Source: an uncultured Eubacteriales bacterium
GTDB lineage: Bacteria > Bacillota > Clostridia > Oscillospirales > Ruminococcaceae
Length of the DNA: 44,080 bases
Direction of reading: 5' to 3'
NCBI GenBank assembly: GCA_900319075.1
Contig: ONMZ01000025.1
Span: 1 to 44,080 of the forward strand
Positions 22,531-40,686 of this stretch are shown here, in pieces. The position numbers were made by a program, and so were the translations under genes. How positions within the stretch are numbered: the first letter of the stretch is position 1; every line of letters begins with the position of its first letter. The notes under the pieces are model-generated. The model was not told the DNA's origin and ran no database searches. It worked only from the letters and a program-made list of their open reading frames with translations.

Positions 22531-22556
22531 TGTCACCACCCAAAAAGGACACACCC
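22506..22556. other. attL of the serine-recombinase element
   Basis: Left half is integrase coding sequence (ATAACCACA), crossover AC at 22529-22530, right half is the element arm TGTCACCACCC then AAAAAGGACACACC. The arm mirrors that at attR. Confidence 0.82.
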
Positions 22557-22587
22557 CACCCACCGCAGCCATATTCGATATAACAAC

Positions 22588-22625
22588 AAAGGTCCGGCGA
22601 CTTGCCAAAGCAGCCGGACCTTTTT
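22588..22625. terminator. Bidirectional terminator at the left end of the element
   Basis: AAAGGTCCGGC (22588-22598) pairs with GCCGGACCTTT around a 14 nt loop, followed by TT on the plus strand; the reverse strand also ends in T. It serves the leftward gene at 22646 and shields the element from purF transcription. Confidence 0.85.
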
Positions 22626-22645
22626 GATTACTATTGACTGTGATC

Positions 22646-23353
22646 TTATTCTTTTCTCTTGAATACATAATGATCCGGTTTCATTCCGCCGTAGATGTAA
22701 TTTCCCATTTTCCATTCGACGAATAAAAACTCAGTCCCGTTGATCTCGGTTATCCAATACTTTGCGGCAGTTGTACGGTGAAGATTAAGAATATAACCCT
22801 TAGTCCATTTATCATGCCATTCGCTGTCCATATAGGTTTGTATCAAGCTCCCTTCAGGGAATATTTCCATAGATCTGAGGTATAGATCATCATACTTTTT
22901 ATCGGGAGAAAAATCTCCGATCTCTGATACAAATGCGACCGAGTCCCATTCCCCGATCAGCGCTTCATCGGATACAAATGGCAGGTCTATGTTATCATGA
23001 ATGCCGAGAGTTTCTTTAGTATACCGTTCGCTGTCAGCTTTTACGAACACCTCTGTCTTGTCATCAAGTCTGAAAAAAAGATACTGCCTGCCGCCTATAT
23101 CCCGAAAGTCATATCTGTATGTAAGTATCGGCTCATCACCGCCGTAGTGGATAAGGATAACGCCCTTTGTCCAGCCCTCAAATATCCAGTAAGGCTCACC
23201 GTTCGGGAGAAAAAACAGGATATTATATTCACCGCTTTTGGCGTTCAGGTCTGTGACTGAAAGACTATCCGTACTGCTTGTCCAGCCGATGTTCTCCCAT
23301 TTGCCTATCACTCTGTCGTCGTTGACAAATTCCATTCCGTTAGCTATTTTCAA
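22646..23353 (-). CDS. Hypothetical protein with two tandem beta-rich repeats
   Basis: Protein of 235 residues, not recognised. Two halves align: VNDDRVIGKWENIGWT with VSDEALIGEWDSVAFV, LPNGEPYWIFEGWTKGVILI with FPEGSLIQTYMDSEWHDKWTKGYILNL, and GGRQYLFFRLDD with NGTEFLFVEWKMG. Each half looks like a small lipocalin-like barrel (GxW start, alternating strands). No signal peptide, Cys pair or catalytic motif is seen. The start at 23353 overlaps the LysR gene stop (ATGA), so both are co-expressed. A small-molecule binding role would suit the fold but is unproved. Confidence 0.75.
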   Translation of the reverse strand: MKIANGMEFVNDDRVIGKWENIGWTSSTDSLSVTDLNAKSGEYNILFFLPNGEPYWIFEGWTKGVILIHYGGDEPILTYRYDFRDIGGRQYLFFRLDDKTEVFVKADSERYTKETLGIHDNIDLPFVSDEALIGEWDSVAFVSEIGDFSPDKKYDDLYLRSMEIFPEGSLIQTYMDSEWHDKWTKGYILNLHRTTAAKYWITEINGTEFLFVEWKMGNYIYGGMKPDHYVFKRKE

Positions 23354-24213
23354 AGTGTATCACCCCTTGCATCATCAAGCCACTTTGCAAGCCCCTTGAA
23401 ACGCTTGTTATCCTCTTTTCGCCAACAGCAGTAAAAGACCACCTTTGCGGCATCGTCGGCTATCGGGATATTGACACGGTTGTCGTGATGCTGCGGCATT
23501 TTGATCGTAACGCTTGATGAAAATGACGGCAGGGCCGATGCCTTTATCAGCTCGCCCAAAGCGTCATACTCGCTTTGCACGATGTACTTTGTATTCGGGG
23601 TGTGCTTCTGATGCACCTCATGCCAGAAACCGAGGTCTGAAAACAGCAGCATCGTTTCGCCGTCAAGGTCGGAAAAATGAACCTCACTGTATCCTGCCAG
23701 AGGGTGTGCAGGCGGCACGGAAAGATAAAGCTGCTCTTCGAAAAAACGCTTGCAGACTATGCCCTCCGCATTCACCTCAAAGGGCGTGACAAGTATCTGA
23801 CAGCTGCCGTTTGTAAGCTCGTTTATGAAGTCGTCATGGTACTTCATCTCGCTTGATATTTTCATATCGGGAAACTGCTCTGAAAGCGTTGGGACAAGTC
23901 TCCACAGCGGTGCAGGGGCACAGGATATTACGGAGATAGTCCTGTGGCTGAGATCAAAGGCACGCACACGCTCGGTCAATGCCTCATTATCATCAATTAT
24001 CTTCCTTGCAAGCTCGACAGCGAGCCTGCCGTTTTCGTTAAGCTCCACCTTGTTTTTGCCTCTGTCAAAGAGCTTCACGCCGATCATGTCTTCGAGCTTG
24101 TTCACAGTCCTACTGAGTGCAGGCTGACTTAAATGCAGCTGCTCCGCCGCTTTTGACATTGTTCCGCAGTCGGCAATAGCCACAAGCTGCACGAGCATAT
24201 ATATTTCTATCAT
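23350..24213 (-). CDS. LysR-family transcriptional regulator
   Basis: Protein of 287 residues. N-terminal winged helix: LVQLVAIADCGTMSKAAEQL, HLSQPALSRTVNKLEDMIGV, KLFDRGKNKVELNENGRLAV. The co-inducer domain follows from about 90 (SVISCAPAPLWRLVPTLSEQ). ATG at 24213 is preferred over GTG 24216, since AAGGCGG lies 7 nt before it. It is divergent from the aldo/keto reductase gene at 24354, the usual arrangement for a LysR target. Inducer unknown; neighbours suggest a carbonyl or redox signal. Confidence 0.9.
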   Translation of the reverse strand: MIEIYMLVQLVAIADCGTMSKAAEQLHLSQPALSRTVNKLEDMIGVKLFDRGKNKVELNENGRLAVELARKIIDDNEALTERVRAFDLSHRTISVISCAPAPLWRLVPTLSEQFPDMKISSEMKYHDDFINELTNGSCQILVTPFEVNAEGIVCKRFFEEQLYLSVPPAHPLAGYSEVHFSDLDGETMLLFSDLGFWHEVHQKHTPNTKYIVQSEYDALGELIKASALPSFSSSVTIKMPQHHDNRVNIPIADDAAKVVFYCCWRKEDNKRFKGLAKWLDDARGDTL

Positions 24214-24302
24214 CACATCACCGCCTTTTGTTCAGTATAGCATATACACTGCAATATGTCAACTTCTATAATTCAGACTTATAGCTCTATCAGTAATTAG
24301 TA

Positions 24303-24332
24303 TTGTACAATCACGAAAGCTTGATGTATAAT
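24303..24332 (+). promoter_or_regulatory. Promoter of the aldo/keto reductase-flavodoxin pair, with ATTGTACAAT palindrome
   Basis: TTGTAC (24303-24308), 18 bp, TATAAT (24327-24332). The -35 is embedded in ATTGTACAAT, a perfect palindrome. The second reductase cluster has the same arrangement at 32799-32828, which suggests a shared regulator, possibly the LysR protein. Confidence 0.65.
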
Positions 24333-24353
24333 AAAGCTAAAGAGGTGGAACTT

Positions 24354-25196
24354 ATGAAAAACATGATCCTTTCAAACGGAGTGGAAATGCCGATGCTTGG
24401 CTTCGGCACATTTATGATAAAACAGGACTGCGAGCAGCACGTCGCAGATGCCCTGAAACTCGGCTATCGGCTGATAGATACGGCGGCTTCGTACTTCAAC
24501 GAAGAGGCTGTCGGCAGGGCGATCAAGGCAAGCGGCATACCCCGTGATGAGCTGTTTGTAACATCAAAGCTAAGGGTTCAAGACGCAGGGTACGAGAACA
24601 CTTTAAAAGCCTTCGATAAGTCGCTCAAAGCCCTCGGACTCGATCACTTGGACTTATACCTGATACACCAGCCCTACGGTGATTATTTCGGCTCCTGGAG
24701 AGCTATGCAGAAGCTGATGAAGGACGGTTACATTCGTGCGATAGGCGTTTCAAATTTCAGCGCCGAACGTGTTGTGGACTTGGCTCTCAACAGCGACAAC
24801 GCCCCGATGGTGGATCAGATCGAGCTGCACCCGTTCTTTCCGCAGGAGGACACTATCTCAGAGATACGAAAATACGGCTGTGTGCCGCAGGCATGGGGAC
24901 CTCTCTGCGAGGGGCAGAAGGATATTTTCAACGATCCCACTCTCTGCGAGATAGGCAAGGCTCACGGAAAAGCCGCCGCACAGGTCGCCCTAAAATGGAA
25001 TCTGCAAAGGGGCGTGGCGGTCATTCCTCGCTCGACAGACACGGCGCACAGAGCCGAAAATATCGACCTTGATTTTGAGCTTTCCGAGGACGAGATGAAG
25101 CGCATCTCCGCTCTCGACATAGGCCGCAGCGAGATAATCGACCACCGCTGCGCACACACCGCAAGGCAGCTGATAAACTGGAAGATACACGATTAA
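24354..25196 (+). CDS. Aldo/keto reductase
   Basis: NAD(P)H-dependent carbonyl reductase, 280 residues. Catalytic tetrad visible: Asp and Tyr in RLIDTAASYFNEEAVG, Lys in FVTSKLRV, His in LYLIHQPYGDYFGSW. C-terminal cofactor site: KWNLQRGVAVIPRSTD and HRAENIDLDFELSEDEM. ATG at 24354 follows GAGGTGG; upstream ATGs at 24303 and 24324 lie in the promoter. It resembles 2,5-diketogluconate reductase-type enzymes. It is followed 12 bp later by a flavodoxin-like lipoprotein. A paralogue lies at 34191. Confidence 0.92.
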   Translation: MKNMILSNGVEMPMLGFGTFMIKQDCEQHVADALKLGYRLIDTAASYFNEEAVGRAIKASGIPRDELFVTSKLRVQDAGYENTLKAFDKSLKALGLDHLDLYLIHQPYGDYFGSWRAMQKLMKDGYIRAIGVSNFSAERVVDLALNSDNAPMVDQIELHPFFPQEDTISEIRKYGCVPQAWGPLCEGQKDIFNDPTLCEIGKAHGKAAAQVALKWNLQRGVAVIPRSTDTAHRAENIDLDFELSEDEMKRISALDIGRSEIIDHRCAHTARQLINWKIHD

Positions 25197-25208
25197 GGAG
25201 GAATTATT

Positions 25209-25952
25209 ATGAAGAAACTTATCGCTTTACTGGCACTGACAACCGTTCTGCTCACAGGCTGCGGAAGCTCCGAAAGCAGTTCATCAGCTGCTCAGACCAC
25301 AACTTCGGCTCAGGCAGAAACACAGACTGCCGAAAGAAGTGAACCTGCTGCGAGCGAACAAACAACGAAAGAAGCATCTGACTCTTCAGAAGCCGCACCG
25401 CAGGAAAGCACATCTGCAAGCAAGATACTTGTGGCATATTTCACCCCCGCCGAGAACGGTGAAAATGATGCGATAACATCTGCCTCTGTCGTGAGCTTCA
25501 AGGGCGAGGATATGGGCAACGCCGAGGCTATGGCAAACATGATCGCTGACTACACGGGCGCAGACCTTTTTTCCATTCAAACGGTAAAGGACTACCCGCT
25601 GGAATACAACGACCTTGCCGACAACGCCAAGGCAGAGCAGGACGCAGGCGAACTGCCGGAACTTGCGGCATCTATTGACATCAGCGACTATGACACGGTG
25701 TTTATGGTCTATCCGATATGGTGGTACACGATGCCGCAGCCAATCTACAGTTTTTTGAACGAGTACGATCTTTCAGGCAAGACTATATTTCCCGTCACTA
25801 CTCACGAAGGCAGCGGACTTGCCGATTCTGTATCAAAGCTCTCTGAGCTTGAACCGAATGCGACGGTGAAGGACGGCTTCTCTGTCCGTGGCGCTGATGT
25901 GGGCGGCTCTCAGGAGGACATTGAAAGCTGGCTGAAAGAACAGGGCTTTTAA
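25209..25952 (+). CDS. Flavodoxin-domain lipoprotein
   Basis: Protein of 247 residues. Signal peptide with lipobox MKKLIALLALTTVLLTGCGS (Cys18), then a Ser/Thr/Glu/Ala linker to about residue 70. A flavodoxin fold follows (KILVAYFTPAENGENDA; FMN-binding YPIWWYTMPQPIYSFLNEYD; FPVTTHEGSGL). An FMN protein tethered outside the membrane, so it would work in extracytoplasmic electron transfer or quinone/flavin reduction, unlike its cytoplasmic relative at 32933. ATG follows AAGGAGGAATTATT. Substrate not evident. Confidence 0.9.
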   Translation: MKKLIALLALTTVLLTGCGSSESSSSAAQTTTSAQAETQTAERSEPAASEQTTKEASDSSEAAPQESTSASKILVAYFTPAENGENDAITSASVVSFKGEDMGNAEAMANMIADYTGADLFSIQTVKDYPLEYNDLADNAKAEQDAGELPELAASIDISDYDTVFMVYPIWWYTMPQPIYSFLNEYDLSGKTIFPVTTHEGSGLADSVSKLSELEPNATVKDGFSVRGADVGGSQEDIESWLKEQGF

Positions 25953-25964
25953 GGAGGAAACAAC

Positions 25965-25982
25965 ATGAACATATTCACTTAA
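25965..25982 (+). other. Five-codon ORF with strong ribosome binding site
   Basis: AAGGAGG, 8 nt, then ATG and a stop after MNIFT. Most likely the 5' stub of a deleted next gene of the flavodoxin operon. Confidence 0.4.
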
Positions 25983-26476: not shown

Positions 26477-26564
26477 TTGACTTTGGGCATTTGATATGAT
26501 AACTTTAAATTAGGCAATGGGGCTGTTTTACCGCTTAATCGGCAAGATAGCCCCATTATTTTTT
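26477..26564 (+). promoter_or_regulatory. Promoter and leader terminator of the AraC-type regulator (ANTAR-like leader)
   Basis: TTGACT (26477-26482), 17 bp, TAACTT. The RNA would begin near 26511 with AGGCAATGGGGCT; AATGGGGCT (26516-26524) pairs perfectly with AGCCCCATT (26549-26557), followed by ATTTTTT. The box at the transcript start resembles those of glnN and the gltB operon. The start codon lies 19 nt after the T run, so read-through is needed for expression. Confidence 0.68.
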
Positions 26565-26582
26565 GCAGAGGGGCAGGTGAGG

Positions 26583-27344
26583 ATGTTGCTTTACAGAGTG
26601 CTTGTTGTGGATAATTCAAACTATGACCTCAGGCATTACAGAGCGATGTCCGTCTTTGCCGAGTGCGGCTTTGAAATGACGGCTCACACCTCCGACCCTG
26701 CAAAAGCCGTTGAGCTCGCAGCTGAACTTGAATGTGATATGCTGCTGTGCATCAATCGCCCTATGGCAGTTATTGCTGCCGATCTCCTCAAACGCCTTGC
26801 AAAGGCTAAGCTGAAAACTCCCGTTGTCATAATCAGCAAGGTGAATATTGCGGGAGATATGCGGGAGTGCTTTCTCCTGGGCGCTGTGGATTACCTTATC
26901 GAACCCGCACTTGAGGAGGATATCCGTGCGGCACTGATACGCAGCTCAAAGGCAATAAGCAGGAACATAATGAGTGCGCAGTACGAAAATGTACTAAGAG
27001 CAGCTCTTTCACAGATACCCATTACCCAGGGCAGCGATACCTTCATCGAAAAACTGCGAGCCCTGCTTGAAGAAACACAGGGCGCAGCGATAACAGTTGA
27101 GGCTGCTGCCGATCGTTTCGGTTTCAACCCCGATTACTTCGGAAGGTACTTCAAGGCAAGAGTCGGTATGCCCTTTACAGAATTCTATAAGCGGCTATCT
27201 ATGGAGTATGCCAAGCTGCTGCTCGCTTCGGGGCACTATAAGGTCAGCGAGGTGAGCAATCTGCTGGGTTTCGCTTCGGCGGATTATTTCTCCAACGTTT
27301 TCAAAAAGGTAACAGGCAAACTGCCCTCGCAGTTCAAGAGATAG
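26583..27344 (+). CDS. AraC-type regulator with degenerate response-receiver domain
   Basis: Protein of 253 residues: receiver-like domain (1-115; YRVLVVDNSNYDL and the TPVVIISK beta-strand) and AraC DNA-binding domain (about 155-253; VEAAADRFGFNPDYFGRYFK, then VSEVSNLLGFASADYFSNVF and TGKLPSQFKR). The phosphate-accepting Asp is missing: MLLCINRPM occupies the place of the usual DxxMP strand. ATG at 26583 is chosen because the frame to 26517 lies in the leader terminator. It ends convergently with an 11 nt overlap against the ANTAR gene. Being 370 bp before gdhA, it may control the glutamate dehydrogenase/transhydrogenase genes. Confidence 0.88.
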   Translation: MLLYRVLVVDNSNYDLRHYRAMSVFAECGFEMTAHTSDPAKAVELAAELECDMLLCINRPMAVIAADLLKRLAKAKLKTPVVIISKVNIAGDMRECFLLGAVDYLIEPALEEDIRAALIRSSKAISRNIMSAQYENVLRAALSQIPITQGSDTFIEKLRALLEETQGAAITVEAAADRFGFNPDYFGRYFKARVGMPFTEFYKRLSMEYAKLLLASGHYKVSEVSNLLGFASADYFSNVFKKVTGKLPSQFKR

Positions 27345-27525
27345 TCAGGTCTGCTATGACAGCCTCAGCTATCTCGCTTTTCCGGACACACTTATCCATC
27401 GCCTGCTTTTGCAGATATTTGTGAGCCTGCTGCTCGGTCATGCCCCTGCTTTTCATCAGCAGCTGCTTGGCTTTTTCAGTCAGCTCATTCTCGGTCTGTT
27501 TATCGGAGAGACCTTTTTCCCACAT
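27334..27525 (-). CDS. Stand-alone ANTAR-domain protein
   Basis: Protein of 63 residues (65 if ATG at 27531 is used) consisting only of an ANTAR domain: LTEKAKQLLMKSRGMTEQQA, HKYLQKQAMDKCVRKSEIAE. ANTAR domains usually follow a receiver, PAS or GAF domain; none is here. ATG 27525 is preferred because AAAGGGGGT is 9 nt away, while 27531 is only 3 nt from it. It closely resembles the ANTAR part of the chromosomal regulator at 5506, so it could bind the same leaders as a constitutive activator, or compete by dimerising with it. It overlaps convergently with the AraC-type gene, so antisense effects are possible. Confidence 0.82.
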   Translation of the reverse strand: MWEKGLSDKQTENELTEKAKQLLMKSRGMTEQQAHKYLQKQAMDKCVRKSEIAEAVIADLTIS

Positions 27526-27696: not shown

Positions 27697-29046
<1,350 letters not shown>

Positions 29047-29255: not shown

Positions 29256-29285
29256 ATACAAGTAAACAATGGAAGGAGTATGAAA

Positions 29286-30407
29286 ATGAAAAAAATACTG
29301 GTCTGCCGGGAAACAGACCCCCGAGAGACCCGCACTCCGCTTATCCCTGATGATGTTAAGAGACTTATATCAATGGGCTATGAGATCAGAGCAGTCAAGG
29401 GTACAGGTGCAAAAAGCGGTTTCTCCGATGCTGATTACGAAAAGGCAGGAGCTGTGCTTGTTTCTTCCAACGAGGAGGGCTACAGGGGCAGCGAGGTCGT
29501 GCTGCGCATTATGAAACCCGAAAGCATAGAGGGGATCGAGAGCGGCACTCTGCATTTAAGCTATCTTGATCCCTTCAATGAGAAGGCTCTGCTTAATGAT
29601 ATGGCAAAGGCGGGAATACAGGCAGTTTCACTTGAAATGATACCCCGCACCACCCTCGCACAGAAAATGGACGTGCAGTCCTCGCAGACTTCATTAGCGG
29701 GTTATGCTGCGGTCGTGAATGCTGCCGCAAAGCTCCCGAAAATTCTCCCGATGATGGTAACTCCTTCGGGAACTATCAACCCTGCGAGAGTGTTTATCAT
29801 AGGTGTCGGCGTTGCAGGCTTGCAGGCGATAGCCACCGCCAAACGTCTCGGCGCAAGAGTCGATGCTTTCGACACCAGACCGGTAGTCGAGGAGCAGGTA
29901 AAGTCTTTAGGCGCGAGCTTTGTCAAGATAGATCTGGGCGAAATGGGACAGACCGATCAAGGCTACGCCAAGGAGCTGACTCCCGAGCAGGTCGCCAAAC
30001 AGCAGGAGGCACAGGCCAAGGTCTGCGAGCGCTCGAATATCGTTATCACCACTGCAAAGGTCTTTGGAAGAAAAGCGCCGCTGCTTATAAAGAAGGACGT
30101 TCTTGACCGTATGCAGCCTGGCTCGATAGTGGTGGATATGGCAGTATCCACCGGGGGAAACGTGGAGGGCTCAAAGCTCTTTGAGGACGTTGTCACCGAC
30201 AATGGCGTTACCATAATGTCCGGCGATCTGCTGGAGCGGCAGGTGCCTTACGATGCTTCAAAAATGCTTTCGGGAAACTTCACCGCATTCCTTACTCACT
30301 TTTACAGCAAGGAGACAAAGGAGCTTGATGTTGATCTGAAAGATGAGATAATGCGGGGCTGTCTGCTTACACAGAACGGCTCTGTGATCCACGAAAGATT
30401 CAAGTAA
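29286..30407 (+). CDS. pntA: NAD(P) transhydrogenase subunit alpha part 1 (NAD(H)-binding)
   Basis: Soluble domain I of proton-translocating transhydrogenase, 373 residues: binds NAD(H) and exchanges hydride with domain III. Motifs: RETDPRETRTPLIPDDVKRL, RTTLAQKMDVQSSQTSLAGY (the RQD-loop region), NAD site VFIIGVGVAGLQAIATAKRL (about 174-193), VDMAVSTGGNVEGSK. ATG 29286 has AAGGAG 7 nt upstream; ATG 29280 is too close. In clostridia and Rhodospirillum the alpha subunit is split as here. Related to alanine dehydrogenase, but the operon settles it. Confidence 0.94.
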   Translation: MKKILVCRETDPRETRTPLIPDDVKRLISMGYEIRAVKGTGAKSGFSDADYEKAGAVLVSSNEEGYRGSEVVLRIMKPESIEGIESGTLHLSYLDPFNEKALLNDMAKAGIQAVSLEMIPRTTLAQKMDVQSSQTSLAGYAAVVNAAAKLPKILPMMVTPSGTINPARVFIIGVGVAGLQAIATAKRLGARVDAFDTRPVVEEQVKSLGASFVKIDLGEMGQTDQGYAKELTPEQVAKQQEAQAKVCERSNIVITTAKVFGRKAPLLIKKDVLDRMQPGSIVVDMAVSTGGNVEGSKLFEDVVTDNGVTIMSGDLLERQVPYDASKMLSGNFTAFLTHFYSKETKELDVDLKDEIMRGCLLTQNGSVIHERFK

Positions 30408-30419: not shown

Positions 30420-30734
30420 ATGGCAACAGGAGAAATATTACTGCTGGTTTTCGTGTTCGTGATCGCCGGCTTTCTGGGCGTCGAGCTTATCTCGAAGGTC
30501 CCCTCGCAGCTGCACACACCGCTGATGTCGGGTACGAATGCGATCTCCGGCATAACCATAGTCGGAGCGATCTCTGCTACCGCAGTCGCCCTGCACACCG
30601 AAGGCATGGTGTCGAATATATGCGGCTTTGCGGCGATAGTATTGGCGACGGTAAACGTCATCGGCGGCTACCTTGTCACTGACCGAATGTTGGGAATGTT
30701 CAAGTCAAAGGATAAAAAGGGGGATAAAAAGTGA
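30420..30734 (+). CDS. NAD(P) transhydrogenase subunit alpha part 2 (membrane)
   Basis: Membrane part of 104 residues with three hydrophobic helices (ILLLVFVFVIAGFLGVELI, AISGITIVGAISATAV, ICGFAAIVLATVNVIGGYLV) and the conserved VPSQLHTPLMSGTNAISGI loop. It forms the proton channel with the beta subunit. It follows pntA after 12 bp and ends in a Lys-rich tail whose stop overlaps the pntB start. Confidence 0.94.
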   Translation: MATGEILLLVFVFVIAGFLGVELISKVPSQLHTPLMSGTNAISGITIVGAISATAVALHTEGMVSNICGFAAIVLATVNVIGGYLVTDRMLGMFKSKDKKGDKK

Positions 30735-32167
30735 GCTGGGAAAATGTCAGCACCGTCATGACGACGATCCTTTACATGGTCTCGGCGGTGCTTTTTATCC
30801 GTGGAATAAAGCTGCTGGGCAAGGCGGATACTGCCCGCAGGGGAAATCTTATGTCCGCAGCAGGTATGCTTATTGCAGTCGTGACCGTCCTGCTTGAAAA
30901 AAACGTCACCGATACCCTCACCGAAGGTCCTGCAAAAAACGCCTATATATGGGCTTTGGCAGCTATAGTTCTCGGCGGCATCATCGGAGCTGTCTGGGCT
31001 AAAAAGGTCGAAATGACAGGTATGCCTCAGCTGGTGGCGCTGTTCAACGGCTTCGGAGGACTGTCCTCTCTGCTGGTCGCACTGACGCAGTATATGACTG
31101 ACAAGAACATCAACGCATTCAGCTCTGCGGCACTCGGTCTGACTATCGCTATAGGAGCGATCGCCTTCACGGGCTCGGTGGTGGCCTGGGGCAAGCTGTC
31201 GGGCAAGCTGTTCAAAAAGAATATTTCTATCCCCGGAAAGAATCTGATCAATGCCTGCCTTGCAGCAGTCGGCCTCGCCGGAGTTGTGATGTACGTCCTG
31301 AGTGTTGCAGAGGTCGTTGATACAAGCGTAGGAAAGGTCGGCGTTATCATCACCACAGCCGCATATCTGATACTGGGCTTTACTATGGTCATTGCTATCG
31401 GCGGCGGAGATATGCCCGTAATAATCTCGCTGCTGAATGCCTTTTCAGGTCTTGCCGCAGCCTTTGCCGGACTTGCCATGAGCAATTCGGTACTTGTGGT
31501 TTCGGGCTGTCTGGTGGGAACAAGCGGCCTTATCCTGACGCTTATCATGTGCAAGGCGATGAACAGAAAGCTCACGGCGCTGCTGTTCAGCTCCTTCGGC
31601 GCAAGCAGCAAAAAGGGTGCAGCGGGAGAGCATAAGGAGCCAAAGTCCATGTCCGTCGAGGACGCCTATCTGATACTGGAAGCCGCCAGCTCGGTAGTAT
31701 TTATCCCCGGCTACGGAATGGCTGTTGCGCAGGCACAGCACGCAGTCAAGGAGCTGTGCGACAAGCTGGAGGAAAACGGCGCAGAGGTGAGCTTTGCGAT
31801 ACACCCCGTTGCGGGTCGTATGCCCGGTCACATGAACGTGCTGCTGGCAGAGGCTAATGTGCCCTACGAGCAGCTCAAGACCGCAGACGAGATGAACCCC
31901 CAGATGCCGAATACCGACGTTGCGATAGTCATTGGTGCAAATGATGTGGTGAACCCTTCGGCAATATCTGACGAGACCAGCCCGCTTTACGGAATGCCTA
32001 TCATCAATGCTTTTGAAGCAAGGACGGTATTCGTGCTGAAACGAGGCAAAGGCACAGGCTTCTCGGGCGTGGAGAATCCGCTGTTCACCAACGACAACAC
32101 CATTATGATCTACGGCGACGCCAAAGCCACAGTCTCCTCGCTCGTAAGCGAGTTCACCGAAGAATAA
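30731..32167 (+). CDS. pntB: NAD(P) transhydrogenase subunit beta
   Basis: Protein of 478 residues; about nine membrane helices (residues 5-270), then soluble NADP(H)-binding domain III. Domain III marks: VFIPGYGMAVAQAQHAVKEL (about 318-337), HPVAGRMPGHMNVLLAEA, IVIGANDVVNPSA and FVLKRGKGTGFSGVENPLF. Starts with GTG at 30731, overlapping the previous stop (GTGA). The complete enzyme uses the proton gradient to drive NADH + NADP to NADPH + NAD, supplying GDH, whose gene lies just upstream. Confidence 0.95.
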   Translation: MSWENVSTVMTTILYMVSAVLFIRGIKLLGKADTARRGNLMSAAGMLIAVVTVLLEKNVTDTLTEGPAKNAYIWALAAIVLGGIIGAVWAKKVEMTGMPQLVALFNGFGGLSSLLVALTQYMTDKNINAFSSAALGLTIAIGAIAFTGSVVAWGKLSGKLFKKNISIPGKNLINACLAAVGLAGVVMYVLSVAEVVDTSVGKVGVIITTAAYLILGFTMVIAIGGGDMPVIISLLNAFSGLAAAFAGLAMSNSVLVVSGCLVGTSGLILTLIMCKAMNRKLTALLFSSFGASSKKGAAGEHKEPKSMSVEDAYLILEAASSVVFIPGYGMAVAQAQHAVKELCDKLEENGAEVSFAIHPVAGRMPGHMNVLLAEANVPYEQLKTADEMNPQMPNTDVAIVIGANDVVNPSAISDETSPLYGMPIINAFEARTVFVLKRGKGTGFSGVENPLFTNDNTIMIYGDAKATVSSLVSEFTEE

Positions 32168-32932: not shown

Positions 32933-33424
32933 ATGAGCAAGAAACTGGTACTATACTTCTCGGTATACGGCACAGCAAAAAAAGTCGCTGAGGAGATCGC
33001 AAGGCAGACGGGCGCAGACCTGACAGAGATCATTCCCGAAACACCCTATGACAGCAACCGTGACAACTACAATGCACTTGCCGCTTATGCAAAGAAGGAA
33101 CACGACGAGGATATGCGACCTGCGATCAAGAACGATATCAATATCACTGACTATGATACCATTTTCATCGGCTATCCCATGTGGTGGTACACCTTCCCGA
33201 TGATCATTTACACGCTGTTCGACAAGTACGATTTCAGCGGCAAGACCATTATTCCGTTCAACACGCACATGGGTTCTCACGACGGCGGTACATATGATAC
33301 CATTCGTGAGCTTGAACCGAATGCGACCGTTGTGATGAACGGTCTGCCTGTTGAAATGAAAGCAGCGGAAACAGGTGCAGCAAAGCAAGTTGAAAAATGG
33401 CTAAATAGTCTTAATTTAGATTGA
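32933..33424 (+). CDS. Flavodoxin
   Basis: Cytoplasmic FMN protein of 163 residues. FMN phosphate loop region LVLYFSVYGTAKKVAEEIAR, aromatic loop GYPMWWYTFPMIIYTLFDKY, and IIPFNTHMGSHDGGTYD. Same subfamily as the lipoprotein at 25209 but without signal peptide and linker. ATG follows AAGGAGGTATCCC. First gene of a four-gene operon with tight 13-15 bp spacings. Electron partner not known; it may serve as a quinone or nitro-reductase-type flavoprotein. Confidence 0.93.
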   Translation: MSKKLVLYFSVYGTAKKVAEEIARQTGADLTEIIPETPYDSNRDNYNALAAYAKKEHDEDMRPAIKNDINITDYDTIFIGYPMWWYTFPMIIYTLFDKYDFSGKTIIPFNTHMGSHDGGTYDTIRELEPNATVVMNGLPVEMKAAETGAAKQVEKWLNSLNLD

Positions 33425-33439: not shown

Positions 33440-34177
33440 ATGGACAATGTGAAGGACAAAGTTGTTATTATCGCAGGTGCTTCATCGGGCATCGGTAAAG
33501 AAACGGCAAGAATGCTTGCGAAAAACGGTGCAAAGGTTGTCATGAGTGCAAGACGTGAGGATAGACTCAAAGCACTCTGCGATGAGATCGGTGAAAATGC
33601 AGTCTATCTGAGATCAGATGTCTCAAATCCCGATGATATGAAAGCACTGGCTGCGCTTGCAAAGGAAACATTCGGCAAGATCGATGTACTGTTCGCCAAT
33701 GCAGGTATTATGCCTGCCGGAAATATGTCCGAGCTTAAGGTGAATGACTGGATCAGTATGGTGAATATCAATATTAACGGTGTACTTTATGCAATAGCAG
33801 CGGTGCTTCCTGAGTTCAATGCCCAAAAGTCAGGTCACATTATCGTAACATCTTCTGTAGCGGGAACAAAATCAGTACCGGGAAATGCGGTTTACAGCGG
33901 TACAAAGCACTTTGTCAGAGCGATGATAGATTCATTCCGCACAGAATCTGTCATGGAAGGAACGAATATCCGTACAACGCTCATTTATCCCGGTGCAATT
34001 AAGACGGAGCTGCTGAATACTGTTGCACCGTCTGAAACCAAATCAATGGTTGAGGAGTTTTACAAGAATGTCGGCATCGAACCCGACGCGATTGCAAATG
34101 CTGTTCTGTATGCTGTTTCACAGCCGGAAAATATTGATGTATCAGATATGGTCGTTAGACCTGCAAGAGAAAATTAA
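33440..34177 (+). CDS. Short-chain dehydrogenase/reductase (SDR)
   Basis: 245 residues. Cofactor site IIAGASSGIGKETARMLAKN (11-30), NAG motif LFANAGIMPAGNM, catalytic Ser in IIVTSSVAG and Tyr-x-x-x-Lys in VYSGTKHFV. An NADP preference is suggested by the basic SARREDRL after strand 2. Classical SDR of the YdfG/serine-alcohol dehydrogenase group. Starts 15 bp after the flavodoxin gene. Substrate unknown. Confidence 0.94.
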   Translation: MDNVKDKVVIIAGASSGIGKETARMLAKNGAKVVMSARREDRLKALCDEIGENAVYLRSDVSNPDDMKALAALAKETFGKIDVLFANAGIMPAGNMSELKVNDWISMVNININGVLYAIAAVLPEFNAQKSGHIIVTSSVAGTKSVPGNAVYSGTKHFVRAMIDSFRTESVMEGTNIRTTLIYPGAIKTELLNTVAPSETKSMVEEFYKNVGIEPDAIANAVLYAVSQPENIDVSDMVVRPAREN

Positions 34178-34190
34178 GGAGGATATACTT

Positions 34191-35051
34191 ATGGAATTTG
34201 TAACACTGAACACAGGAGCAAAAATGCCGCTGGAAGGCTTCGGCGTATTTCAGGTACCCGATCCTGCCGTATGCGAGCAGGCAGTTTATGATGCGATCAA
34301 GACAGGCTACCGTCTGATCGACACAGCACAGGCTTACATGAACGAGGAGGCTGTCGGCAAGGCTGTCGACCGTGCGATTGCTGACGGTATCGCAAAGCGT
34401 GAGGAGCTTTTTATCACCACCAAAGTATGGGTGTCCAATATGAAGACTGAGGACACAGCTTATGAGTCCGTGAAAACATCTCTTGCAAAGCTGGGACTTG
34501 ATTACGTTGACCTTATTCTCCTGCACCAGCCTATGGGCGACTATTTCGCAGCATACAGAGGTATCACAAGAGCATACAAGGAAGGACTTGTCAAGGCGAT
34601 CGGCGTTTCCAATTTCTATCCTGCGATCCTTGCAAATCTCTGCAAGAATGTGGAGATCATTCCTGCGGTAAATCAGGTAGAGCTGCACCCGTTCTTCCAG
34701 CAGGATAAAGCACTTGCAACCATGGAGGAATACGGTATCGCACCGCAGGCTTGGGGGCCGCTTGCAGAGGGCAAGCACGGCATCTTCTCTCACCCCGTCC
34801 TCTCCGAGATCGGCAGCAAGTACGGAAAGACCGCCGCACAGATCGCCCTCAAATGGAACACGCAGCGTGGTGTTTCAATTCTGCCGAAGTCCGTTCACGT
34901 GGAGCGTATTGAGCAGAATATCGACATCTGGGACTTCACACTTACCGATGAGGATATGCAGAAGATCGCAGAGCTTGACCTTGGTCACAGCGAGATCGTT
35001 GACCATGATTCTCCCGAATTTGTCAAGGCTCTGAACGGAATGAAGGTATAA
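34191..35051 (+). CDS. Aldo/keto reductase
   Basis: 286 residues, paralogue of the enzyme at 24354. Catalytic Asp and Tyr in LIDTAQAYMNEEAVG, Lys in ITTKVWVSN, His in ILLHQPMGDYFAAY; cofactor site KWNTQRGVSILPKSVH. ATG at 34191 follows AAGGAGGATATACTT; a much longer frame from 34023 overlaps the SDR gene and is rejected. Its conserved GDYF segment after the catalytic His is shared with the other copy. Confidence 0.93.
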   Translation: MEFVTLNTGAKMPLEGFGVFQVPDPAVCEQAVYDAIKTGYRLIDTAQAYMNEEAVGKAVDRAIADGIAKREELFITTKVWVSNMKTEDTAYESVKTSLAKLGLDYVDLILLHQPMGDYFAAYRGITRAYKEGLVKAIGVSNFYPAILANLCKNVEIIPAVNQVELHPFFQQDKALATMEEYGIAPQAWGPLAEGKHGIFSHPVLSEIGSKYGKTAAQIALKWNTQRGVSILPKSVHVERIEQNIDIWDFTLTDEDMQKIAELDLGHSEIVDHDSPEFVKALNGMKV

Positions 35052-35064: not shown

Positions 35065-35937
35065 ATGGAAATGCAGAAAGCCGTATTTATGAACAAGGAG
35101 CTGAATCTGCGTCTTGCAGGACTGCTCTATCTGCCGACGAACTTCGATCTCAGCAAAAACTATCCGGCAGTTGTTGTGACCGGACCGATGCTCTCCGTCA
35201 AAGAACAGGCACAGTCTGTCTATGCCAAGCGTCTGACCGAAGCAGGATATGTGACTCTCGTTTTTGACGGTGCATATTTTGGTGAGAGCGAAGGTATGCC
35301 GAGAGGTCAGGAACTCCCCGATGTCAAGGAAAGCGATATTGAGGGGGCTGTCGATTACCTCACAAGCCTTCCCTATGTAGATAATGAGCGTATCGGCGGA
35401 CTCGGTATATGCGGTTCAGGTTCGTATATGTCCGTGGCAGGTGTGAAAGAGCCGAGACTGAAAGCAATTACCGCTATCGTTCCGGCGATCTCCGATATTT
35501 CCAATTCTCCAATGATGGGCTTTTTCAAGCCGGAGGAGGAAGTCAAAGCAGCGAAAGAAGCCTATGATAAAGGTGAAGGCGAGCTGATATATCTCAATTT
35601 TATGCCGAGAGCATTTGATGAGGGTGCAGCCTACTACTATTCCTCCCGCGGCAATTCGGCACGCTGGTCGAATCAGGTCGTTGCGTGGAGCCAACTTGAA
35701 CTGGTGAAGTACAATGTGGTGAACATCATGAAGGAGATGCAGAAGCCCTATCTTGTCATCACGGGTGAAAATGCGTGGTCGAAACCTTCCTCTACAGAGG
35801 TATTCGATGCAGTTCCTCACAGCAATAAGGAAATATTCGTTGTTCCCGAAGCGAGCCACTTTGATATGTATGATCTTGAACCCTATGTGACAGCGGCGTT
35901 TGAGCGTATATTGCCGTTCTTTGATAAGTATCTGTAA
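35065..35937 (+). CDS. Alpha/beta hydrolase (dienelactone hydrolase-like)
   Basis: 290 residues. Fold marks: YPAVVVTGPML (strand and oxyanion region), LVFDGAYFGESEG, nucleophile elbow GLGICGSGSYMS with Cys in the nucleophile position as in dienelactone hydrolases, Asp region LVITGENAW and His in VPEASHFDMYD. No signal peptide. Last gene of the flavodoxin-SDR-AKR operon, 13 bp after the reductase, followed by a terminator. Substrate not evident; xenobiotic or carbonyl detoxification is inference from the neighbours. Confidence 0.9.
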   Translation: MEMQKAVFMNKELNLRLAGLLYLPTNFDLSKNYPAVVVTGPMLSVKEQAQSVYAKRLTEAGYVTLVFDGAYFGESEGMPRGQELPDVKESDIEGAVDYLTSLPYVDNERIGGLGICGSGSYMSVAGVKEPRLKAITAIVPAISDISNSPMMGFFKPEEEVKAAKEAYDKGEGELIYLNFMPRAFDEGAAYYYSSRGNSARWSNQVVAWSQLELVKYNVVNIMKEMQKPYLVITGENAWSKPSSTEVFDAVPHSNKEIFVVPEASHFDMYDLEPYVTAAFERILPFFDKYL

Positions 35938-36000: not shown

Positions 36001-36182
36001 GTTTTGCTAAACAGCAGGGAGAAAAACAGTTTTAAATCTAAATATTATGTAAACACGTCCTGTTTTGCCTTAACTTTTCGCCCGAAATCCTAGGTATAAG
36101 TGAGAGGCTATTATTTTCGATAAAAAGTATTCTTTGATAAAACTTGCCAGTCTCTCCTTATCTAATACACTGTACAAGTCAC

Positions 36183-36229
36183 ACATTTTACATAGGGCTA
36201 ATTTGTTGAATACAGAGAATTTGTACAAT
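36183..36229 (+). repeat. Direct repeat copy 1
   Basis: Starts ACATTTTACAT, continues with ATTTGTTGAATACAGAGA and ends TACAAT; copy 2 is at 36361-36409, 178 bp downstream. Both are preceded by similar CAxxC(A)CA sequence. The spacing fits protein binding sites in a transfer or maintenance region. Confidence 0.7.
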
Positions 36230-36360
36230 GATAGTGAAATATCGCTTAAAAATATGCCGCATTATGTAGTGTCTTATGAAAGAAGGTTTCACTGTGTCAC
36301 AATAAAGACCATGTTCAGAAAGGTGGGGCGACTACTCCACAGCAGCTATATGCAAACCAT

Positions 36361-36409
36361 ACATTTTACATTGGTCTGATTTGTTGAATACAGAGATAAT
36401 TATTACAAT
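36361..36409 (+). repeat. Direct repeat copy 2
   Basis: Second copy of the repeat at 36183, with the 18 bp core ATTTGTTGAATACAGAGA identical and the flanks partly diverged. Confidence 0.7.
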
Positions 36410-36549: not shown

Positions 36550-36561
36550 ATGGTCGCTTAA
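36550..36561 (+). other. Three-codon ORF behind a strong ribosome binding site
   Basis: CAGGAGGTGTTTACA then ATG GTC GCT TAA. Either a remnant or a leader peptide of the mob operon. Confidence 0.3.
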
Positions 36562-36757: not shown

Positions 36758-36807
36758 TGAAATTCCCCATTCGAGGGATACACAAAGAAGATTACCAAAA
36801 GAAAGGA

Positions 36808-37158
36808 TTGATAAAAATAGCAAGAAAATACAAGCAAGTAAAACGCAAGGAGCTGACATTTGACCTTAGTGACTGGGAGAAAATCGAGCGTCGGGCTGAG
36901 GCTTGTCACACCGACACAACTAAATATCTCCGCAGAATGATACTCGACCGTGAGCCGATCTTTTATGATATGAAAAATGTCGCCCCGATGATAAACGGTA
37001 TGCGAACAATCTCACGCAACATCAACCAGATCGCAAAGAAGGCGAACGAAACAAACACGCTCAATGCAGAGGATTATGAATTTTTACGCAAGGAGGTGGA
37101 ATCGCTATTCCATACTGTAAATCTATCGCTCTCCACGCTACTGTCGAGAAAAGTCTGA
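36808..37158 (+). CDS. mobC: MobC-like relaxosome protein of the element
   Basis: About 114-116 residues; ribbon-helix-helix start (KRKELTFDLSDWEKIERRAE), then TDTTKYLRRMIL and the ISRNINQIAKKANET segment characteristic of MobC. No ATG is available. TTG at 36808 abuts the AAAGGA, while ATA at 36817, where comparable proteins would begin with MARKYKQ, has ideal spacing. It overlaps the relaxase frame by about 50 nt. Assists the relaxase at 37107. Confidence 0.85.
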   Translation: MIKIARKYKQVKRKELTFDLSDWEKIERRAEACHTDTTKYLRRMILDREPIFYDMKNVAPMINGMRTISRNINQIAKKANETNTLNAEDYEFLRKEVESLFHTVNLSLSTLLSRKV

Positions 37159-38531
37159 GGTACATACTCAACCCCGACAAGACCGAGGACTTGCTTTACA
37201 CGGCATCGGTAAATTGCATGACTGACGCTGAATCCGCCTACTTGCAGATGAGGCTTGTTTATGATCAATTCGCCAAAGACCATTTCAACAGCCCTCCGCC
37301 CCTGCAAGGCAAAGGCTCGGTGAAAGCTATCCATTACATACAGAGTTTCTCGCCTGATGATGACGTCACGCCAGAGCTTGCCCACAAGATCGCAAAGGCT
37401 TTTCTCCGCAAAGCTTTTGGTGATGATGTGCAGGCGGTAATTGCAACCCACGTTGACAAGAAGCACATACATTCACACATCATAATAAATTCCTACTCGC
37501 TGTCGGGAAAGAAATATTATGCTAACCGCAACTCTTTGAAAGAGATAAGAAATATCTCTGACGGGGTAAGCCTTGTCTATGGCGTAAAGGCTAACCCGAA
37601 GCTCACAGGCAAGGGCAAGTCGATCAACTACAGCGAATGGCAGCACCGCAAGAACGGCACCTCTTGGAAACAGAAAATTCGTGATGAGATCGACAAGCTG
37701 ATACCTACCGTCAATTCGCTTGATGAGTTAATACAAGAGCTTGAAGAACGTGAGTATGAAATCAAGCGTGGGAAGTATATCTCGATCAAAGCCCCCGGGC
37801 AGGAACGCTTTGTTCGCACTAAAACGCTGGGGGATGAGTACACGGAGGACAGCTTGAATATCCGCATTCGTTATCGTGAGGTGGGTGCAGGAAGCACGCC
37901 CGAGCAGACCGCAAGCTCTGAATTGCAGGCTGCCTATGTTGCAATAATCGGTGATGTTAGAATACTTGCAGCCCAGCGGAAGAAAGTGCCTCGCAAGCGA
38001 ATCGTCACAGCTGCATACTCGGTTGAAAATGATCTTGATGTTTACAAGCTGTCGGCACAGCTATCTGTCATTAACAATGAAAATATCAAATCAATCGGTG
38101 ACCTGCAAGGGAGAATTGCTAAGTTGAGTTCCGACTACGAAACACAGAGGGGAGAGATCAATAACTATATTGATGAACACAACAGGCTTGTAAGCCTATG
38201 GGAGCAGGCACAGCTTTTTGATGAGTTATCATCTAAGGACAAGCTGTCAGACGCCGAGCAGCTTCAACTCACCATTTGCAGGCAGGCTATAGAACAGAAT
38301 AACATCCACAGCAAGGCAGATTATGACCTGCTTCGTAATCAGACCTACAGCCTGCAAAGCAAGATCAACAGCCTGAAAGATACACTTGAAAAGACTCGTC
38401 AGCGGTATGATGTGTACTGCGATATCTCTAAGACGTATGGCGAGATCTCAAAGGGCGACTATATCAGCAATCTTGTCGAAGAAGAACGTCAGCGGCAGGA
38501 GCAGGTCAAAAAGAAAAATAAAAGGCGATGA
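37107..38531 (+). CDS. MOBP-type relaxase of the serine-recombinase element
   Basis: Relaxase of 474 residues if read from ATT 37107, the codon where the conserved N-terminus PYCKSIALHATVEKSLRYIL begins. AAGGAGG lies 10 nt upstream, and no ATG occurs until well inside the domain. NPDKTEDLL and VNCMTDAESAYLQM follow. Catalytic His triad in ATHVDKKHIHSHIIINSYSL (about 131-150). The middle SINYSEWQHRKNGTSWKQKI is typical of the clostridial group. The C-terminal 150 residues are coiled coil. It nicks oriT of the element so that a helper plasmid or ICE can move it. The non-AUG start may mean low expression or recent damage. Confidence 0.88.
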   Translation: MPYCKSIALHATVEKSLRYILNPDKTEDLLYTASVNCMTDAESAYLQMRLVYDQFAKDHFNSPPPLQGKGSVKAIHYIQSFSPDDDVTPELAHKIAKAFLRKAFGDDVQAVIATHVDKKHIHSHIIINSYSLSGKKYYANRNSLKEIRNISDGVSLVYGVKANPKLTGKGKSINYSEWQHRKNGTSWKQKIRDEIDKLIPTVNSLDELIQELEEREYEIKRGKYISIKAPGQERFVRTKTLGDEYTEDSLNIRIRYREVGAGSTPEQTASSELQAAYVAIIGDVRILAAQRKKVPRKRIVTAAYSVENDLDVYKLSAQLSVINNENIKSIGDLQGRIAKLSSDYETQRGEINNYIDEHNRLVSLWEQAQLFDELSSKDKLSDAEQLQLTICRQAIEQNNIHSKADYDLLRNQTYSLQSKINSLKDTLEKTRQRYDVYCDISKTYGEISKGDYISNLVEEERQRQEQVKKKNKRR

Positions 38532-38625
38532 AGATCGCCGTATGAAGGGAGTGACAATCAATGAAAGTACGTGTAACTTTTATCCTCGCAATAAACTAAC
38601 TATTAAGAAACGGGAGGATAAATAT

Positions 38626-38847
38626 TTGAGCAGAAGATTAGACATATTTGAATACGCCGAGCAGCATAAGGACTGCCCCGAACACACCAATGAGTATGAG
38701 ATTGACGGAAAGAAATACATAGTCCACAGCCACTTTGTCGGACAGAAAGATATTGACAAGGTGCTGTCGGAGATAGCCGTGAATAGGGCGCTGTCCGAGG
38801 TGCTGTATAATAATGCTGATAGAAACACAAGCAAAACTATAGCGTAG
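38626..38847 (+). CDS. Small hypothetical protein between relaxase and recombinase
   Basis: 73 residues from TTG at 38626 with CGGGAGG 9 nt upstream: MSRRLDIFEYAEQHKDCPEH, then TNEYEIDGKKYIVHSHFVGQ and a helical tail. Looks like the small accessory proteins often found beside large serine recombinases in gut Firmicutes; function unknown. Could assist excision directionality (inference). Confidence 0.7.
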   Translation: MSRRLDIFEYAEQHKDCPEHTNEYEIDGKKYIVHSHFVGQKDIDKVLSEIAVNRALSEVLYNNADRNTSKTIA

Positions 38848-38864
38848 AATATCAAATCGGAGTC

Positions 38865-38893
38865 TTGCCATATTCGGTATCTTGTGGTATAAT
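38865..38893 (+). promoter_or_regulatory. Promoter of the serine recombinase
   Basis: TTGCCA (38865-38870), 17 bp, TATAAT (38888-38893). Confidence 0.75.
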
Positions 38894-38938
38894 GTAGGTA
38901 TCGAATATGGCTGCTTTGATTACGAAAGGAGTAGAATT

Positions 38939-40609
38939 ATGGCAAAGCAGACCATTTACAATGCAGGAATTTACGTCCGCCTCTCGCAGGAGGATATGAG
39001 GGCAGGCGAATCCCTATCAATAGAAAACCAAAAGCTGATACTTACAAAGTACGTTAAGGAACAAGGCTGGAACCTGATCGACATTTATGTTGATGACGGC
39101 TTTAGTGGAACAAGTTTTGACAGACCGGGCGTGCAGCGTTTGCTTGATGATGCGAAGGTCGGGAAGATCAATCTGATAATTTGTAAGGACTTGAGCCGTT
39201 TCGGGAGGAATTACATAGAGGTAGGCAGATATGTTGACTACATATTCCCGAGCTATAATATCAGATTTATTGCCCTTAACGATAATGTTGATACAGCTAA
39301 CAAGGACAGCTCGGCACATGATATGATGCCGATAGTCAACCTCTTTAATGAATGGCACGCCGCTTCTACCAGCAAAAAAATCAAGGCTGTTATCGAGGCA
39401 AATGCTAAGGCGGGGAAATATCGTGCAACTTGTGCGCCATACGGTTATGTTAAGAGCAATACTGAAAACAGGCTGCCTATACCCGATGAGCCTGCGGCAA
39501 GTATTGTCAAGCGTATTTTTGAATTGAGAGCAAAAGGAGTTAGCCCTCGTCACATCTGTGATATGCTTAATGAGGAGAAGATACCCACGCCGTCCGATTA
39601 TGCAGCGCAAAAGCATGGTGTGACTACCAACCGCAGTGTTAATCACCTTTGGTATCCCGAGGGGATAAGGCGCATAACAAGCAATCCCACATATCTCGGA
39701 CATCTGGTTCAGCTACGAACAACAACTGTCAGCTACAAAAATCACAAGCTCGTGAAAAAGAGCGAGGAAGACATGGTGATCATCAAGAATACCCATGAGC
39801 CCCTTGTGTCGCAGGAACTTTGGGATAAAGTCAGAGGGGTCGAGGCATCGGTCAGTCAGGGCAAGCGTGACAAGCACGGTGAGATAATGCCGCTTTCGGG
39901 ATTGATGTACTGTGCGGACTGCGGTGATAAAATGCGGCTCGGTTGGAACAATACCACTGCGGGCAGTAAGAAAAAGCCTCGGAAATATCTAAGGCACAAC
40001 TATCAATGCGGTAAGTACAGCAGATTTGGCAAGTACCTTTGCACAAGCCATCATATCAAAATGAAAGACATTAATGCGATAGTGCTTTCAGATATTCGGT
40101 CAAAGGCGGCATTGGTGATTGCAGACGAGGAGTATGCAAGAGAGTTTTTTCTTTCGCAAAAGGAGCAGTACAACACCAAGCAGTCCGAAGCTGATACAAA
40201 ACGGCTGCATGAGTGCAAGACAAGGCTTGACGAGCTTGCAAAGCTGATACCTTCGATCTACGAAGATAAAGTCATTGGCAAGATACCCGAGAGCGTTTGT
40301 GTCGAACTGCTTGAAAAGTATCAGACCGAACAGACTGCACTTACTGACGAGGTCGGTCAGATAGAAAGCAAGCTGTCAGCTATCAAGCAGGACAAGCAGG
40401 ACGTTGAGGAATACATAAACCGCTTAAAGAAATATGCCGATGTTCCCGAGCTGACTCGTGAAATGGCTCTTGAACTGATCGAGTACATCACGATAGACGA
40501 GTATGCGGCAGACCGCCCGAGGGATATTCATATTTATTACAAGTTACTTGACAAGCCGCTGCCGAACAAGATGAGGCTTGATGTTAAGAAGAATGATGAA
40601 ACGGCGTAA
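38939..40609 (+). CDS. Large serine recombinase (TndX/TnpX type)
   Basis: 556 residues. Resolvase domain 1-150 with catalytic Ser in YVRLSQED (Ser16) and Arg residues in CKDLSRFGRNYIEVGRYVDY. Recombinase domain 165-300 (GKYRATCAPYGYVKS, LWYPEGIRRITSNPTYLG). Zinc ribbon MYCADCGDKM with YQCGKY and LCTSH (about 325-375). Coiled coil and C-terminal segment 400-520. ATG at 38939 follows GAAAGGAG; the upstream frame to 38882 covers the promoter. It catalyses insertion and excision of the 18 kb element between the att sites at 22530 and 40661. Confidence 0.96.
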   Translation: MAKQTIYNAGIYVRLSQEDMRAGESLSIENQKLILTKYVKEQGWNLIDIYVDDGFSGTSFDRPGVQRLLDDAKVGKINLIICKDLSRFGRNYIEVGRYVDYIFPSYNIRFIALNDNVDTANKDSSAHDMMPIVNLFNEWHAASTSKKIKAVIEANAKAGKYRATCAPYGYVKSNTENRLPIPDEPAASIVKRIFELRAKGVSPRHICDMLNEEKIPTPSDYAAQKHGVTTNRSVNHLWYPEGIRRITSNPTYLGHLVQLRTTTVSYKNHKLVKKSEEDMVIIKNTHEPLVSQELWDKVRGVEASVSQGKRDKHGEIMPLSGLMYCADCGDKMRLGWNNTTAGSKKKPRKYLRHNYQCGKYSRFGKYLCTSHHIKMKDINAIVLSDIRSKAALVIADEEYAREFFLSQKEQYNTKQSEADTKRLHECKTRLDELAKLIPSIYEDKVIGKIPESVCVELLEKYQTEQTALTDEVGQIESKLSAIKQDKQDVEEYINRLKKYADVPELTREMALELIEYITIDEYAADRPRDIHIYYKLLDKPLPNKMRLDVKKNDETA

Positions 40610-40635
40610 ATGCGCTGTTTTTAGCAACAGAAGAT

Positions 40636-40686
40636 TGTGTGTCCTTTTGGCACGTTGACTACGCTTGACATCTATTCTCACATAAT
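40636..40686. other. attR of the serine-recombinase element
   Basis: Element arm GTGTGTCCTTTTGGCACG then TTGACT, crossover AC at 40661-40662, then integrase gene sequence GCTTGACATC. Together with attL it defines the element ends. Confidence 0.82.

Follow-up and report, generated by a model that had tools for sequence, protein, structure and literature searches.

A serine-recombinase element at the catalytic-tyrosine codons of a tyrosine integrase in an uncultured Eubacteriales genome, and related elements at the same motif

Structure of the element and its insertion site

We analysed a stretch of 44,080 bp (the window; contig ONMZ01000025.1 of assembly GCA_900319075.1) from an uncultured Eubacteriales bacterium, which is contig C35 of a 2.26-Mb genome in 58 contigs, 86.65% complete. 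Within it lies an element of 18,132 bp (22531-40662) with a large serine recombinase (LSR) gene at its right end, inserted into the coding sequence of a tyrosine integrase (Table 1). The matches of the recombinase to PF00239, PF07508 and PF13408 are all above cut-off. With an integrase of its own, a relaxase and a NikA-like protein recognised by Pfam, the element is an integrative and mobilisable element (IME); the origin of transfer (oriT) was not located, and no conjugation-pore families were among the matches from the 17 chosen element open reading frames that were scanned.

The arms at the two ends, read inward, are TGTCACCACCCAAAAAGGACACACC and AGTCAACGTGCCAAAAGGACACACA. They are equal at 18 of 25 positions; among 1,000,000 pairs of window positions taken at random, 3 reach that score. 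An AC dinucleotide stands at each end, and joining the flanks through a single AC gives an uninterrupted integrase frame. It can be seen from the arms, the AC and the unsplit sites described below that the recombinase gene lies beside an attP that yields attL and attR with a 2-bp core, as in LSR systems. Boundaries and att arms, like the target class and the differing cargo treated below, are read from the sequences themselves. An earlier sequence-only reading of the window had proposed an LSR element of 18.1 kb with att arms, a 2-bp core and mobilisation genes, and had placed the recombinase gene at the right end; all of this was borne out. It had also described the target as a second integrase gene split at AC. 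The split stands, but a whole gene was ruled out: homology to the intact integrase (copy 1) begins only at 22190, at about codon 328 of copy 1 and directly behind purF, and the target is a 3' fragment only.

The same site is occupied in another genome. In G010 (contig C24, locus L177; CADAHS010000024, 45,799 bp) another LSR element interrupts a 96%-identical integrase at the identical base; its recombinase is 69% identical to that of the window and its arms form a different palindrome (20/25; 20/26 over 26 positions). Its cargo comprises a type IIG-like restriction-methylation enzyme, a specificity subunit and a DUF4238 protein. The uninterrupted integrase that the sequence-only reading had proposed to seek in related genomes was found in G011 (C165) and G016 (C86), and copy 1 is likewise unsplit. 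The insertion at the identical base in G010 and the unsplit integrases of G011 and G016 therefore give independent support for the element boundaries. Misassembly at the arms was judged unlikely, as G010 independently has the identical junction base.

Table 1. Features of the element, its attachment sites and its surroundings (window coordinates)
Feature	Position	Strand	Evidence or remark
Copy 1, intact tyrosine integrase of same family as split target, attB unoccupied	2283..3695	+	PF00589 to profile 170 of 172
Tyrosine-integrase 3' fragment, left part (attL flank), stops just short of catalytic-tyrosine codon	22124..22530	+	blastn 95.6% DNA to 3264-3604; PF00589 match to profile 163 of 172
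Core dinucleotide AC, attL	22529..22530		
attP left arm	22531..22555	+	18/25 match to right arm
Hypothetical protein, 235 aa	22646..23353	-	Pfam: no match
LysR-family regulator	23350..24216	-	PF00126, PF03466
Aldo/keto reductase	24303..25196	+	PF00248
Flavodoxin	25209..25952	+	PF12682
AraC-type regulator, weak receiver-like domain	26517..27344	+	PF12833; PF00072 just under cut-off
Short ANTAR-like stretch	~27352..27513	-	tblastn 46% over 54 aa to ANTAR protein 5506-6102
gdhA, NADP-type glutamate dehydrogenase	27712..29046	+	NF006929 above cut-off
pntAA, transhydrogenase alpha 1	29280..30407	+	NF006942 N-terminal part, under whole-protein cut-off
pntAB, transhydrogenase alpha 2	30420..30734	+	NF006942 C-terminal part, under cut-off
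pntB, transhydrogenase beta	30731..32167	+	NF006974, E 2.3e-130, under cut-off
Flavodoxin	32933..33424	+	PF12682
Short-chain dehydrogenase	33440..34177	+	PF00106
Aldo/keto reductase	34185..35051	+	PF00248
Alpha/beta hydrolase	35065..35937	+	PF02129, PF01738
NikA/MobC-like mobilisation accessory protein	36808..37158	+	PF21983
MobA/VirD2-type relaxase; frame open upstream of listed start	37191..38531	+	PF03432, E 9.7e-30
Small conserved gene preceding recombinase	38542..38847	+	no Pfam; also ahead of recombinases in L078, L079, L080, L082, L084 (56-59% aa over 52-54 aa)
Large serine recombinase, 556 aa, ATG start	38939..40609	+	PF00239 (Resolvase), PF07508 (Recombinase), PF13408 (Zn-ribbon), PF14287 (DUF4368)
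attP right arm	40636..40660	+	18/25 match to left arm
Core dinucleotide AC, attR	40661..40662		
Rest of integrase 3' end with catalytic-tyrosine motif (TTLDIYSH...)	40661..40754	+	94.3% DNA to copy 1 3600-3704
3' end of tRNA-Met, 45 bp, likely host-island attachment site	41677..41721	-	exact copies inside intact tRNA-Met genes of L080, L158, L160

Related recombinases lie at the same motif

The recombinase family was collected in one scan of a genome collection (one genome per species, 84,980 species), which gave 66 loci. A right end was counted as a tyrosine-recombinase tail when T..xYx[HND] stood 40-75 nt past the recombinase stop in a frame open for at least 18 aa; this rule was drawn up after a first listing of the ends and was then loosened for the observed Y.D and Y.N. 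Pieces with fewer than 120 nt remaining, or with a match ending before residue 500, were excluded from the count (in one of the latter, L190, the tail is visible by eye). Of the 36 recombinase pieces with 61% identity or more, among them the window's, 31 are followed, 50-64 nt past the stop, by a sequence that reads as a tyrosine-recombinase end at the catalytic-tyrosine codons, for example TTLDIYSH, TTLSVYSH, TTMNIYAH or TTSNVYCH. Of 20,000 stretches drawn at random from the same loci, 121 passed the rule, as did 3 of 24 pieces below 61% identity, all three being C-terminal pieces of broken genes. Where relatives of the recombinase carry a name, the label is in nearly all cases Ruminococcus or other Clostridia or Bacillota, and the hand-listed loci (33) come from 29 genomes, four of which have two each. 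Plasmid, phage and viral collections yielded distant recombinases only: the best match was below 60% in all 514 matching plasmid records and in all 800 matching phage records, and 31-40% at 6 viral-contig loci.

Both ends could be located for seven elements: that of the window (arm match 18/26) and those at L169 (~8.55 kb, 18/26), L174 (10,636 bp, 20/26), L177 of G010 (8,987 bp), L181 (6,992 bp, 19/26), L188 (11,482 bp, 21/26) and L191 (9,283 bp, 19/26). Six left ends were found by arm match alone, with no integrase required, in 26 loci tried, and one more (L169) by a junction pattern requiring an integrase, in 24 chosen loci; the window gave one additional chance arm match, of 16/26. In all seven the left flank is an integrase that breaks off shortly before the tyrosine, with a PF00589 match that stops at profile position 157-163 of 172, compared with 170 in intact copy 1. 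In the tyrosine-recombinase family the catalytic tyrosine normally lies in the part that is removed by the insertion. When the frame is read on into the element, six of the left fragments show no Y.H. The L188 element is a two-ended case from a record (R. flavefaciens SAb67) not labelled as a metagenome-assembled genome (MAG). For L181 the target integrase is unsplit in G006 and G015, the relative in G006 reading LGHSTAVTTMSIYAH straight through; an unsplit target of L191 was found in none of the 29 genus genomes.

The 31 of 36 tails, together with the integrase left flanks in all seven two-ended elements, indicate that this LSR clade uses conserved tyrosine-integrase codons as attB, the target being a motif and not one gene. 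For the clade proposed here this attB is GH....T|T...Y.H with core AC, as found in the window element. Across the family there are 34 right junctions, 32 of them distinct as DNA and all with the AC core; the AC is no independent count, since the rule requires a Thr codon there. Clustered by single linkage, their protein tails fall into 28 groups at 90% identity, 27 at 70% and 14 at 50%, the last of these groupings being one of tails of up to 30 aa and not of whole target proteins. The seven left fragments represent six different integrases of 22-39% pairwise identity, that of the window and L177 being shared. Both the 14 groups and the divergence of the six integrases seen from both sides speak against a single old insertion inherited with an integrase lineage, in place of repeated targeting. 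Such inheritance would fit the integrase family common to the window and G010, and the right ends that are near relatives of one another (L170, L200, L211, L217), but as an account of the shared target we regard it as extremely improbable.

Several points weigh against reading the target as a motif used by the whole clade. Five of the 36 pieces lack the tail; L193, L202 and L220 are partial or broken, but L189 and L218 are apparently inserted elsewhere, and their right flanks do not read as integrase. Of the 34 junctions, 27 are known from the right side only, where the integrase is identified by no more than about 40 aa of tail. The rule itself fixes the places of T and Y, and one threonine comes from the arm. 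Finally, the left fragment of L169 (L169:3167-3223) reads on as TVHISYGH, with Y.H one residue late, so that loss of activity is not certain for this fusion; an element supplying a substitute integrase tail would make L169 a case of interest.

In a tree of 50 recombinases the integrase-target trait is explained by a minimum of 2 changes. It is limited to two neighbouring clades (13 and 19 rows) in which 30 of 32 rows are positive, the other two having too little sequence in one case and a recombinase match that ends early in the other. None of the remaining 18 rows has the trait (2 of these with too little sequence). Support for the union of the two trait clades is weak, and the trait-free rows L189, L194 and L218 stand at the same open fork.

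In Ruminococcus sp. YE71 (L184:9962-17000) two recombinases of the family lie about 5 kb apart with a different integrase end after each, the second being in pieces.

Proposed mechanism and comparison with known systems

We consider it likely that the element is an IME moved by a DUF4368-type LSR which joins a palindromic attP to tyrosine-recombinase codons as attB. According to this scheme the recombinase would pair attP with the codons GH....TT...Y.H, two conserved tyrosine-recombinase motifs, with exchange at AC, where the codon four positions ahead of the catalytic tyrosine begins. Insertion cuts the terminal portion, tyrosine included, off the integrase of the host element and, falling before the catalytic-tyrosine codon, should usually switch off the target gene. 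Excision would restore the integrase gene scar-free, because both junctions carry the same two bases. The relaxase and MobC-like protein may let the excised circle use the conjugation machinery of another element. As tyrosine integrases commonly share the motif, the element could enter, and ride in, many unrelated mobile elements. Excision, transfer and the loss of host-integrase activity are predicted steps.

The host in the window is most likely a tRNA-Met island, because an intact tRNA-Met follows the target integrase in G010 and G011 and the same 45-bp end stands to the right of the element (Table 1). Here, then, the site would be an integrase fragment in this island, and the cargo gdhA-pnt together with redox genes.

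More tentatively, and with somewhat less than an even chance in our estimate, the clade may be specialised on the catalytic site of a rival superfamily and act as a removable lock. The host would be immobile while the guest is in and mobile again, scar-free, after the guest leaves, and the guests would have spread through many tyrosine-integrase elements with cargo ranging from phage defence to ammonium assimilation. What counts against such a lock in this genome is that the target was already a fragment and that intact copy 1 remains, so that the insertion need not disable the island. The fragment also fits another account, to which we give about an even chance: the recombinase would recognise a conserved DNA motif located by chance in integrase genes, which, being dispensable and common, offer a safe haven only, and host-integrase loss would be a by-product without consequence. 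Precedents exist in the serine-integrase IMEs described in other conserved genes (traG, maff2, snf2) of integrative and conjugative elements (ICEs) (PMC5357655, PMC5704250). Nothing separates this account from the switch, as both predict the same sequences.

Nested serine-integrase IMEs are therefore already known, and what is unusual here is the target, the catalytic codons of tyrosine integrases. Among the literature matches listed, mostly non-subscription and supplements aside, there was no report of serine-recombinase insertion into tyrosine-integrase genes or their catalytic codons. As described in PMC5704250, the Tn4451/Tn4453 family likewise consists of clostridial IMEs that use a single serine recombinase and cross over at 2 bp, but its integration specificity is low, whereas the clade here keeps to one protein motif, with 31 of 36 pieces at the tyrosine-integrase motif; this contrast is one of description and not of recombinase sequence. 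The streptococcal IMEs in traG, maff2 and snf2 resemble the present ones in being nested in, and disrupting, a conserved gene of another mobile element. Their targets in PMC5357655, unlike those here, are conjugation or accessory genes of Tn5252-superfamily ICEs; here it is the integrase itself, across different integrases. For Tn1806-like ICEs in snf2 of ICESa2603-family ICEs, nested site-specific insertion and the ability to leave are given as experimentally shown (PMC12942858); those elements differ in being conjugative, with three serine integrases and methyltransferase or helicase targets (PMC12942858). The recombinase also shares DUF4368 with the clade known as multi-targeting, in which close relatives enter divergent target genes (PMC10083194). 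In contrast, the clade here hits a single protein superfamily, in divergent members but at one motif, which the passages of PMC10083194 consulted here do not mention; in this comparison our target groups derive from tails and are clade-wide, while that paper used whole target proteins and a 90% cluster.

A single odd insertion thereby becomes a rule, namely a recombinase clade landing on the codons for the active site of integrases that belong to other mobile elements. If this is true, one mobile element can gain very broad access to others and control over their movement, and recombinases whose DNA target is predictable and resembles a protein motif would be at hand. Such interference between elements would become testable in cultured Ruminococcus and in E. 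coli.

Cargo of the element and of its relatives

The sequence-only reading had singled out the cargo as the unusual feature; the target now appears the more unusual of the two. AraC-gdhA-pntAA-pntAB-pntB is an ordinary conserved operon of the genus, some part of which was matched in 28 of 29 genus genomes (the window's included), in some via a glutamate dehydrogenase (GDH) paralogue only. The paralogue alone is present in G008, G006, G016 and G010; gdhA and the full set of three pnt genes stand in order in G009, G011 and G020. In the gdhA tree the window groups with these last three (93/97); the pnt trees gave no resolved grouping, and presence is patchy. None of 18 gdhA/pnt loci in relatives, several on short or cut contigs, gave a match (E 1e-6) to the recombinase, relaxase or MobC of the window, nor was any match found there to the redox genes that flank the module in the element. 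A distant tyrosine integrase was seen near two of the 18 loci (L049, 36%; L053, 28%).

The claim that gdhA/pnt travels as cargo is the weaker part of the sequence-only reading: the arms enclose the module, but relatives have it in the same gene order without this recombinase. Such relatives had been named beforehand as grounds for rejecting the claim; they bear on the module and not on its place in this genome. It also tells against mobile cargo that gdhA-pnt inside such an element is a single case on one MAG contig, and that the genomes of the near recombinases L166 and L168 have gdhA-pnt on other contigs, that of L167 showing none. The insertion could accordingly be real and the module resident chromosomal DNA, put between the arms by later rearrangement or by MAG misassembly. 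In favour of this are the operon's usual neighbourhood in several relatives (amtB, glnK, glnA or purF), the ammonium-assimilation block directly left of the element, and the search of three near recombinases, none of which was seen with the module. Nevertheless, both arms and a continuous assembly enclose the module, the neighbouring flavodoxin, reductase, dehydrogenase and hydrolase genes occur at none of the 18 relative loci, and the sister species G008 (99% complete) has the GDH paralogue only; we therefore hold resident origin to be rather unlikely. If mobile cargo is confirmed, central ammonium assimilation would be moving on such elements. An ANTAR protein had also been counted among the cargo, in error: only the short minus-strand match lies inside, and the full ANTAR protein (5506-6102) is outside the element.

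Sister elements differ in cargo, which by sequence consists of anti-phage or other genes. L188 carries a type I methyltransferase; matches were weaker for the proteins examined in L169 and L191. In R. flavefaciens FD-1 (L214:561-7832) the family recombinase is preceded by DrmA/DrmB (DISARM) and a helicase-like protein, the left end not being found.

The small gene before the recombinase might, at a guess from its position alone, encode a directionality factor. A 52-bp direct repeat (85%; 36180-36229 and 36358-36409) in the AT-rich stretch before mobC is possibly an oriT region, and is also present in L258. In L258 (1619-5717), which belongs to the genome of L167, a counterpart of the window element's mobilisation module (84% DNA) lies beside a tyrosine integrase, an arrangement that suggests module exchange between recombinase types.

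Genomic setting

By rpoB, G008 is the nearest relative among the genomes compared (93% over 3,019 columns), and a clade of G009, G020, G006 and G016 adjoins. On G008 C2 and G028 C18 the 45-bp tRNA-Met 3' end occurs in more than one copy on one contig, and islands have likely accreted in tandem at this tRNA-Met.

To the left of the element, direct repeats of the integrase 3' end bound an 18.5-kb ammonium-assimilation block (3705-22189) with ANTAR, glnA, glutamate-synthase-like genes, glnA3, amtB, glnK, asnB, pyrG and purF. A search of the window's genome for the sequences that flank the native ammonium cluster in G016 gave nothing beyond scattered matches of 67-70% and a single short one. G008 has 2 matches only to the block, the listed one being a glnA paralogue. 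Both junctions of the block are present in G006 (C91 and C100, 95-98% identity), together with a second copy at about 82%, and the block may itself be a mobile or recombined island.

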